DNA of 64,000 bases, from NCBI RefSeq assembly GCF_005796105.1, contig NZ_VAUO01000002.1:806001-870000 (forward strand), in the 5' to 3' direction. This DNA is from Pseudomonas mosselii (GTDB lineage: Bacteria; Pseudomonadota; Gammaproteobacteria; Pseudomonadales; Pseudomonadaceae). Position numbers and translations under genes: made by a program. Shown here one piece after another: positions 9,993 to 25,163 of the stretch. How positions within the stretch are numbered: the first letter of the stretch is position 1; every line of letters starts with the position of its first letter. The notes below the pieces were generated by a model that ran no database searches, was not told the DNA's origin, and saw only the letters and a program-made list of their open reading frames with translations.

Positions 9993-10057
9993 GATGCAAG
10001 GCTATCGACGAACACAGGGTCGGTCGGTGGCAAATCAGACCTAGCTGTCAGACATTT

Positions 10058-10353
10058 CCGAACCCGCAACAAAGTGCTTCAAAGCTAGATCGCTTGGGAA
10101 TTACCCTACGCGCGCTGCCGACGTGTCTGAATTGTCGAAAACCACCAGCAGGACTAACTTCCCCGAGTCGCCGTTTCGGCGACCGGGTGTGAGAGCCTGA
10201 TATCTGGTTTGCAGCCTTTGCGGCAGCTGTACGCGGGCAGGATTCGTCCTGGCCGGGTTCCCAGGTCTCCGGTCTCTCACCCCGCGTCCAGCTGCCACCC
10301 AATCCTGTGAGAGGGATCAGCGTGCAGCTCCTGACCAATCTGGGAGATTCACA
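10058..10353 (+). promoter_or_regulatory. conserved leader of DUF3077 gene, copy A
   Basis: This non-coding stretch matches the region before the second DUF3077 gene (24622-24908). The shared 58-bp upstream block (10058-10115) includes GGGAATTACCCTACGCGCGC. A second block around 10150-10170 contains CTAACTTCC. A third at 10269-10313 contains CCGGTCTCTCACCCCGCG and GTGAGAGGGA. CTCTCAC (10274-10280) pairs with GTGAGAG (10307-10313), 41 bases before the ATG. An additional GTGAGAG at 10189-10195 could compete for the same partner. This suggests a shared promoter and a structured 5' UTR; the regulator or ligand is unknown. Confidence 0.6.
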
Positions 10354-10608
10354 ATGGAAAAGTTTGTACCCGATTCATCACCACCAACATCCCCAAACCG
10401 CCCCTTCTACACCATCAACGACGACATGCCCGCCCCCGAGGCACTGGTCCACGCTATCCAACTGATGCGCGGCATCGAAGACACCCTCGACGAATACTGC
10501 TGCGCCATGGCCGGCGAACCCGGCCTGGGCATGCTGGTCAACGCCGCGCGCAATGTGCAGATGGGGCTGGCACTGGCCGAACATGCGTTGAAACGCAACG
10601 GCGGCTGA
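10354..10608 (+). CDS. small DUF3077-family protein, copy A
   Basis: This 84-residue protein has a variable N-terminus and then the family core FYTINDDMP, HAIQLMRGIEDT and DEYCCAMAGEPGLGML. No signal peptide or membrane segment is seen, so it is probably cytoplasmic. The function is unknown. The ATG at 10354 is preceded by GGGAG. A paralogue of the same length with a near-identical core lies at 24909-25163, and the two share long stretches of their leaders as well. The acidic helix and Cys-Cys pair are conserved between copies. Confidence 0.8.
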   Translation: MEKFVPDSSPPTSPNRPFYTINDDMPAPEALVHAIQLMRGIEDTLDEYCCAMAGEPGLGMLVNAARNVQMGLALAEHALKRNGG

Positions 10609-10729: not shown

Positions 10730-10951
10730 ATGCACCCTCAACGCATCGCCCTGCACAACGAACTGCACGCCCGCCCGTCGCTGTATTTCGACGGCCCAGC
10801 CCATGTGTTTCACATCGCCCTGCTCGGCGGCCATGCTGCCTGCCAGGCGCTGCTGCCCCGAAGCGCCCGCCCCGATGCGGCGCAGGTGATCAACTCGGTG
10901 TTGGTGCTGCTGGTGATCCTGCTGAGGATCCACAAAGCCAAGCAGCACTGA
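10730..10951 (+). pseudogene. DUF3422-type membrane protein remnant (internally deleted)
   Basis: This 73-codon frame opens with HPQRIALHNELHARPSLYFD and VFHIALLGG, the characteristic N-terminus of DUF3422 proteins, which are usually over 400 residues with membrane helices at the C-terminus. Here about 45 residues of N-terminus run straight into a hydrophobic tail, INSVLVLLVILLRIHKAKQH, that looks like a C-terminal membrane helix. The most likely reading is an in-frame internal deletion that removed most of the gene. A short functional protein is possible but less likely. Confidence 0.55.
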
Positions 10952-24600: not shown

Positions 24601-24621
24601 CAGGCGTGCCCATGGGCATTG

Positions 24622-24908
24622 CCGAACCTGAAACCAAATGCTTCATGACTGCCGGCCTTGGGAATTACCCTACGCGCGCCAAAGAAGCTTCTCCGTTGTC
24701 GCTAAAGGTTCTCAGGGCTAACTTCCTCGGGTCGTCACCAAATGCCCTACGAAACAGAAGCACCGCTCTCAATGGCTACCGTGCGCGGGAGGCTCATGCC
24801 TGCCGGAGTTGTCTGTTCGCCGGTCTCTCACCCCGCGTTGCGGTTGCCACCCCTTGTCCCGTGAGAGGGACCACGCCAGCGGCCTTTCCCCTGAACAGGA
24901 GAAGCATC
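24622..24908 (+). promoter_or_regulatory. conserved leader of DUF3077 gene, copy B
   Basis: It matches copy A at 10058-10353. The upstream block (24622-24679) shares GAACC, TGCTTCA and GGGAATTACCCTACGCGCGC with identical 12-base internal spacing. The hairpin block has CTCTCAC (24825-24831) and GTGAGAG (24861-24867), 41 bases before the ATG. At the stem base copy B has GGT/ACC where copy A has GGT/ATC, a change that keeps pairing through a G-U. The sequence between these blocks is much more diverged, as expected for functional constraint on the blocks. Confidence 0.6.
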
Positions 24909-25163
24909 ATGAGCAAGCCCGCCCCCGATCCGCACCCTGGCAAACCCAACCGTGATTTTTTCACCATCAACGACGATATGCCCGGCGCAGATGCGCTGGC
25001 CCACGCCATTCAGTTGATGCGTGGGGTCGAGGACACCATCGACGAATACTGTTGCGCCATGGCCGGCGAGCCCGGCCTGGGGATGCTGGTCAACGCCGCG
25101 CACAACGCCCAGATGAGCCGGGCACTGGCCGAACATGCGCTCAAGCGTAGCCGGGCAGATTGA
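24909..25163 (+). CDS. small DUF3077-family protein, copy B
   Basis: This 84-residue paralogue of the protein at 10354-10608 has the core FFTINDDMPGADALAHAIQL, RGVEDTIDEYCCAMAGEPG and MLVNAAHNAQM nearly identical to copy A; the first 15 residues and the last few differ. The ATG at 24909 is preceded by CAGGAG. No signal peptide or membrane helix is seen, and the function is unknown. A longer in-frame extension upstream runs through the conserved leader and is rejected. Confidence 0.82.
   Translation: MSKPAPDPHPGKPNRDFFTINDDMPGADALAHAIQLMRGVEDTIDEYCCAMAGEPGLGMLVNAAHNAQMSRALAEHALKRSRAD

Follow-up and report, generated by a model that had tools for sequence, protein, structure and literature searches.

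Two Leaders in a Pseudomonas mosselii Region Contain C4 Antisense RNAs and Probably Form P1-Type Self-Silencing Switches Multiplied on the Chromosome

Two small genes in the window, the 64-kb stretch of DNA analysed here, are each preceded by what Rfam model matching identifies as a full-length C4 antisense RNA (RF01695). Both loci have the order promoter-like site, C4, small open reading frame (ORF), with one C4 arm (a′) complementary to a site on the same mRNA (a2) and a second (b′) complementary to the Shine-Dalgarno (SD) sequence of that mRNA. Over the set of such modules, the b′ match favours the module's own target and is kept while its letters change. The multiplication of C4, and the apparent keying of many copies to their own gene, point to a phage control device that has been multiplied inside the bacterium. 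Each locus very probably works as a translational switch of the P1 C4 kind that silences its own gene, and that has been multiplied along the Pseudomonas chromosome. The features of the two copies are listed below, with a′ and b′ named after the P1 record.

10053–10115, + strand: copy 1, operator-like conserved block (CATTTCCGAAC ... GGGAATTACCCTACGCGCGC), aligned in 13 chosen upstream regions
10132–10160, + strand: copy 1, predicted sigma70-type promoter TTGTCG-17-TAACTT (consensus match only)
10154–10203, + strand: copy 1, candidate c4-a1b1 element, the upstream second target of C4 (RF03163, 36.9 bits, E = 1.2e-7; below the gathering score of 46.7)
10216–10302, + strand: copy 1, C4 antisense RNA (RF01695, 71.2 bits, gathering score 45, model 1–87 complete)
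10258–10266, + strand: copy 1, antisense arm b′ in the C4 P3 loop region, pairing with b2/SD (9-bp duplex with 10338–10346)
10274–10280, + strand: copy 1, antisense arm a′ (CTCTCAC), a single-stranded joining strand in the Rfam C4 structure
10302–10317, + strand: copy 1, hairpin presenting a2 (minimum-energy and centroid folds; stem covaries among modules)
10338–10346, + strand: copy 1, target b2, overlapping the SD GGGAG
10354–10608, + strand: copy 1, controlled ORF, 84 aa (DUF3077/DUF6124 superfamily by iterated profile)
24617–24679, + strand: copy 2, operator-like block (same alignment)
24696–24724, + strand: copy 2, predicted sigma70-type promoter TTGTCG-17-TAACTT (consensus match only)
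24768–24854, + strand: copy 2, C4 antisense RNA (RF01695, 53.1 bits, gathering score 45)
24812–24818, + strand: copy 2, antisense arm b′ (7-bp core duplex with 24893–24899)
24825–24831, + strand: copy 2, antisense arm a′ (CTCTCAC; 7 Watson-Crick pairs with a2)
24856–24871, + strand: copy 2, hairpin presenting a2 (computed folds, covarying stem)
24893–24899, + strand: copy 2, target b2 at the SD (GAACAGG of GAACAGGAG)
24909–25163, + strand: copy 2, controlled ORF, 84 aa (DUF3077/DUF6124 link by iterated profile)

The initial annotation had described two ORFs of equal length behind three shared upstream blocks. This description holds: the products are 73% identical, and the blocks occur in identical order in both copies. 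The likeness of the leaders goes beyond chance, as in each copy the stretch between the blocks is a C4 RNA, one of 17 genome-wide, all above the RF01695 cut-off. E-values on the window were 7e-12 (copy 1) and 2.1e-7 (copy 2), and copy 1 scored higher than phage P1's own C4 with the same model (68.8 bits). The covariation that had been expected of the leaders was found in the three-stem C4 fold, where 18 of 24 pairs showed at least one two-sided change among 36 C4 sequences, namely all 17 of the window's genome (G000) and 19 of the 38 listed for a congener (G005).

The heptamers CTCTCAC (10274–10280 and 24825–24831) and GTGAGAG (10307–10313 and 24861–24867) were located in both leaders, GTGAGAG lying 40–41 nt before each ATG. 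They had been read as the two sides of a leader hairpin, and in this the annotation was mistaken: CTCTCAC is the antisense arm of a separately folded C4, and GTGAGAG is its target. A simple leader hairpin was rejected, being absent from the minimum-energy and centroid folds of both leaders, where Rfam identifies C4. A cis-acting hairpin with no free antisense RNA, such as a thermosensor or attenuator, would fit the perfect complementarity of the heptamers and their conservation in both copies. It is nevertheless very improbable given those folds, and given that CTCTCAC forms arm a′ within an entire C4 fold. These arms are also matched to the upstream part of the module they belong to (equalled by 0 of 20,000 permutations), and the second contact, with the SD, covaries over modules.

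The pairing preserved at the stem base, also noted earlier, stands, and in the computed folds it belongs not to the leader hairpin but to the small hairpin that presents a2 (AUCCU[GUGAGA]GGGAU in copy 1, GUCCC[GUGAGA]GGGAC in copy 2). Across 54 modules the two stem sides framing a2 fitted each other better than swapped sides did (mean score 4.90 versus 4.02; 0 of 20,000 permutations), which explains the compensatory change. Stem length taken module by module was not significant (p < 0.05 in 2 of 55).

The link to phage P1 had been overlooked. In the P1 record (NC_005856) the order is C1 operator, promoters, a1, b1, C4, a2 (4 nt behind C4), b2 (at the SD), icd, ant. The immI region of P1/P7 (c4-icd-ant, RF01695) is alike in RNA family, in fold and in the order a1/b1, C4, a2, b2 at the SD, ORF. 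Copy 1 reproduces this layout, with its a1/b1 match below cut-off, and copy 2 matches it in all parts but a1/b1. The copy 1 element holds a1 as GTGAGAG (10189–10195), with a b1-like ATCTGG (10202–10207) at its edge (our own reading); upstream of copy 2 there was no RF03163 match at E ≤ 1. Elements with E ≤ 0.001 precede 11 of G000's 17 C4 RNAs and, at the 20 loci scanned in G005, 18 of 21, six exceeding the gathering score in each case. In the minimum-energy fold of leader 1 (z −3.07), all seven a′ bases are paired with a1, whereas in the centroid fold a′ is free within the C4 fold. These folds suggest two mutually exclusive states of the kind that a decoy switch requires. In leader 2, which lacks a1/b1, both folds contain the C4 stems and leave a′ unpaired; the z of −0.14 indicates that this leader is no more stable than shuffled sequence.

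Release by RNase P and translational repression by C4 are known for P1/P7 (as cited in the part of PMC5320573 covered here). By analogy, one transcript would be made per module and C4 would be cut from it, probably by RNase P. Free C4 would then bind a2 and b2 on other molecules of that mRNA and silence the ORF. In modules with a1/b1 ahead of C4, the leader RNA may titrate C4 as a decoy and so switch the ORF on, and a protein reading the upstream block would set transcription. The model for the decoy is IsrK-orf45-anrP of the Salmonella prophage Gifsy-1, whose short RNA, encoded upstream, switches on the following operon in trans (PMC4825925, in part). The isrK model overlaps c4-a1b1 matches in Pseudomonas, and one locus (L085) exceeds the isrK cut-off. 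IsrK differs in being a single prophage locus, and the isrK match of copy 1 reaches only 16.1 bits (cut-off 50), with none for copy 2. The CI RNA immunity of phage P4 (seqA-CI-seqC) is similar in that, as the same part of PMC4825925 describes it, an antisense RNA is flanked by two targets on one transcript, but it acts by transcription termination.

Pairing strength was assessed for the arms of the window copies. The b′/b2 duplex of copy 1, a contact that the annotation had missed, has −13.1 kcal/mol, and 26 of 1000 shuffled arms were equally good. The seven Watson-Crick pairs between a′ and a2 of copy 1 were, taken alone, not better than chance (186 of 1000 shuffled arms equal). For copy 2 the b′/SD pairing was weak, with 360 of 1000 shuffled arms equal to it and its own target ranking 4 of 17.

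Over the module set, own pairings stood out. In these tests, as in those on the window copies and on the stem framing a2, arms were cut at fixed offsets in C4, without structural alignment. The mean energy of b′ with its own SD region was −13.1 kcal/mol in G000 and −11.8 kcal/mol in G005, compared with −7.6 and −6.7 kcal/mol with the SD regions of other modules. None of 20,000 permutations was as good in either genome, on the SD side or on the proximal side, and none of 100,000 was for whole segments in G000. Several whole-segment ranks were poor because entire segments were compared. The own SD was the best target for 14 of 17 b′ arms in G000 but just 17 of 38 in G005; privacy thus holds as a tendency of the set, without binding every copy. 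Of the three G000 exceptions, two lack a module-type ORF behind them, and the third is copy 2. The a′ arm was complementary to its own mRNA at a2, by a run of at least 5 Watson-Crick pairs, in 54 of 55 modules. Its letters are common to several modules, and the own proximal target was best in only 1 of 17 (G000) and 2 of 38 (G005), which indicates that a′ gives little private specificity. Pairing of b′ with the upstream 95 nt in G000 was weak, being equalled in 594 of 20,000 permutations.

Orthologous loci show that the match can be rewritten. In P. peradeniyensis and P. mosselii, copy 1 stands in the same place, between genes for an aldehyde dehydrogenase and a mechanosensitive channel, in flanks about 89–90% identical to those of the window. 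The b′ arms at these loci differ from that of the window, yet pair with their own SD at −13.1 to −13.3 kcal/mol; crosswise pairing between window copy 1 and these loci gave −4.8 to −6.1 kcal/mol. The gene behind copy 1 (window 10731–10951), presumably a truncated DUF3422 gene, lacks about 980 bp present in P. peradeniyensis (L120 5951–6945 versus window 10886–10896), and the P. mosselii gap is alike. In Pseudomonas sp. GD03858 (L124, 4040–4116) the copy 1 leader and gene start seem deleted, with the upstream block running straight into the 3′ part of the ORF near the end of a contig.

The dN/dS ratio of the copy 1 ORF was 0.13–0.22 against three relatives of other species, with dS near saturation for one, and 0.19–0.22 between the window and the copy 1 ORFs of P. 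peradeniyensis and P. mosselii; over six protein pairs it was 0.13–0.25. By these ratios and predicted structure, the product is a small helical protein under purifying selection. These values bear on whether the modules are remnants of prophages in decay that no longer have a function. In favour, C4 is an RNA of phages, and several modules look degenerate; for example, C45:38499 has no module-type gene, and the ORF behind C23:219372 seems frameshifted. Against decay stand the low dN/dS, the maintained antisense-target matches, the conserved promoter-like site and upstream block and the conserved synteny of copy 1 in the two named species, and we regard this explanation as highly unlikely.

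A predicted promoter lies upstream of the entire C4 RNA in each copy. The CTAACTTCC block of the initial annotation holds the −10 box of a promoter-like TTG-N3-17 bp-TA-N3-T pattern, and the copy 1 promoter contains most of CTAACTTCC. The pattern occurs in 13 of 13 aligned upstream regions, which comprise 10 of the genome's 17 modules, picked for sharing the block, and three relatives. The 58-bp block lies directly upstream of the promoter-like site and is operator-like in its placing. In P1, by contrast, a C1 operator overlaps the promoter. A search pattern derived from the same modules, GRMMTAYCCTACGC, had five exact matches in the genome, four at C4 modules and one at a contig end beside one. 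Of its 14 one-mismatch matches, five were at modules, including both window copies, and nine elsewhere; a control pattern gave 15 genome matches. One further exact operator-like motif at a contig end (G000:C7:78287) may mark one more module, cut by the assembly.

The proteins had been labelled DUF3077, a label that is weak. Neither reaches the Pfam cut-off (PF11275, gathering score 21 bits): copy 1 had no match and copy 2 scored 15.4 bits. An iterated profile built from six window-type proteins recruited 50 of 119 ORFs behind C4 RNAs of G000 and G005, a set preselected for that position in which true and spurious frames are mixed. No reversed decoy fell below E = 0.01, the best being 0.024. 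A one-step profile comparison with DUF6124 (A8 versus A3) failed at 2.6% probability, and another (A2 versus A3) was discarded as circular, having sequences in common. Judged from iterated profiles only, the window proteins are outlying members of DUF3077/DUF6124. Many first ORFs start with M-K-K-x-V-P-D-P-P or M-F-K-x-T-P-N-P-P. The copy 1 model has a predicted disordered tail and a helical hairpin, with modest confidence (mean pLDDT 69.2); a DUF6124 model from a viral contig (mean pLDDT 71.4) has a confident C-terminal helical hairpin. A PDB fold search with the copy 1 model gave 66 matches at E ≤ 10, generic helical hairpins, none at E ≤ 0.001.

The leader is carried by many genes of this type. 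Among the 38 of 41 C4 RNAs analysed in G005, 31 precede a DUF6124 or DUF3077 gene. Counted over Pfam cut-offs, 26 of 30 DUF6124 and 5 of 6 DUF3077 genes have one of these RNAs within 700 nt upstream on the same strand. The remaining seven C4 RNAs stand before ORFs of other types; two of these ORFs look BRO-N-like in sequence, one with Pfam confirmation. In G000, 9 of 11 Pfam matches (8 of 10 genes) have a C4 within 900 nt. The earlier view of an RNA-controlled family and not a recent duplication was thus right, and its overall reading is upheld in part, the hairpin stem being the part that falls.

Database searches with the proteins were largely negative. PHROGs gave no match for the five module proteins tried, nor did PADLOC for three, and tblastn with the copy 1 protein found none in phage records. 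One DUF6124 protein had a tblastn match at the edge of one phage record and none in plasmids. No antirepressor gene was seen behind either window copy. In the literature searched, DUF3077 appears in connection with a mutation in an evolved strain. A regulatory or anti-phage role of the small protein may be guessed, with low confidence, from its place in the operon, the icd/ant position of P1.

A small protein behind an antisense RNA also recalls type I toxin-antitoxin systems, and the protein that P1 encodes at this operon position, Icd, carries the annotation of a cell-division inhibitor. An addiction module, with a harmful protein held down by C4, is in our judgement improbable. The copy 1 protein has no sequence similarity to P1 Icd. 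In P. farsensis (L122) a relative of copy 2 near a contig end has an intact ORF and no C4 at gathering threshold. In G005, 4 of 30 DUF6124 genes have no C4 among the 38 analysed, of which up to three may have one, since three of the 41 C4 RNAs lie outside that set.

Nine Pseudomonas genomes searched in depth, the window's own included, had 1 to 41 C4 RNAs each; two congeners, one of them G005, had 41 each. Three genomes of the same order from other families had none. In a survey of the genus, at least one C4 was found in 183 of 199 genomes, and 67 (counted by eye) reached 20 matches. In the class, C4 was found in 24 of 369 genomes, the window's own included, mostly 1 to 6 each. These counts are floors, with 20 candidates per genome scored for the genus and 11 for the class. 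The two surveys indicate that C4 expansion is strong in Pseudomonas, whereas elsewhere in the class sample it is rare but does occur. Three genomes of other gammaproteobacterial genera (G475, G568 and G462) had 10, 6 and 6 matches among 11 candidates scored each, which suggests that independent expansions may exist.

Some modules are clustered. At L009 (G000:C45), L012 (G000:C23) and L111 (G005), modules are tandem or near-identical. The two at L012 lie 3.3 kb apart with a group II intron match between them, and we take the ORFs between or beside them to be RHS-like. Modules at L020 and L123, in two genomes, lie near tmRNA genes, an integration hot spot.

Modules also occur in viral contigs. 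Among 57 IMG/VR loci found with DUF6124 genes, 14 were scanned (L125, L126, L128, L131, L132, L134, L138, L143, L147, L153, L157, L160, L176 and L178), and all 14 had a C4 upstream on the same strand. It lies about 50 nt before the gene in 11 and about 530–620 nt before it in L132, L138 and L178; in L132 and L178 a second DUF6124 ORF intervenes. The contigs carry portal, head and tape-measure genes and are, we assume, Mu-like. Proteins upstream of the viral modules match models of defence systems (Dsr1/SIR2, PtuA, AriA, AbiLi, ApeA, KAP, Shedu, FRG), and those downstream hardly do. From 122 non-redundant upstream ORFs with 100 aa or more, 98 of which have 130 aa or more, the longest 72 were scanned and match 314 PADLOC models; all 43 downstream proteins of at least 130 aa together match 2. 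On the G005 chromosome, 27 regions gave 97 upstream proteins with 200 aa or more; 82 of them, after 15 (some long) had been set aside by hand, match 11 models, a few of which are plausible defence proteins (mad3, mad8, DrmC, DpdK). PADLOC models are redundant, many per protein, so these numbers are not gene counts. As a side observation from sequence matches, the link to defence genes appears strong in viral contigs and weak on the G005 chromosome, and the neighbourhood in viral contigs is possibly a defence cargo site.

These occurrences raise the question of whether the main task of C4 is immunity in trans, silencing incoming prophages or satellites of the same specificity, with the local gene just the ancestral target. 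C4 is held essential for P1/P7 heteroimmunity (PMC12197685, in part), specificities are diverse among modules, and modules are found in viral contigs at all 14 loci scanned. Against this, b′ is matched to its own SD over the set and re-matched in orthologues, and the proteins are under purifying selection. As the main function it is unlikely, if a serious possibility, and it could hold in addition to local control. A more far-reaching reading, which we consider distinctly less likely, is that Pseudomonas reworked a phage immunity RNA into mutually private switches whose code is rewritten per locus over species time, with varying anti-phage defence genes next to the modules of Mu-like prophages. 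Such switches may sense invaders: a phage with a matching a1/b1 decoy, or one that overloads C4, would free a dedicated small protein.

Compared with P1, the Pseudomonas C4 RNAs are chromosomal, reach at least 41 copies per genome and differ in b′ from copy to copy. The controlled proteins are mostly of DUF3077/DUF6124 type, with BRO-N in some cases, in place of icd/ant. C4 has been listed in Proteobacteria and phages (Weinberg 2010, PMC2864571, in part) and, as the part of PMC5320573 covered here states, was predicted in Pseudomonadales in that work. The same part describes 21 C4-like RNAs in one genome, the Group 1 sRNAs of Acinetobacter baumannii AB5075, which are likewise multicopy and apparently processed from longer transcripts. 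The Pseudomonas modules differ in showing a matched cis target, a promoter-like site and a gene family, the parts covered here on AB5075 reporting no matched target of its own behind each copy. No description of a Pseudomonas C4 family was found in the literature searched, most subscription papers lying outside it. As far as these searches reach, a chromosomal, strongly multiplied and largely individually keyed C4 set is an unreported setting for a known RNA family.

C4 is best known as one RNA of one phage operon, and in Pseudomonas there are tens of copies per chromosome. If the proposed switch is correct, these would form a natural library of largely orthogonal RNA repressors. They would offer a first handle on the protein families DUF3077 and DUF6124, and would make it possible to test directly how antisense RNAs and their targets change in step while control is kept.
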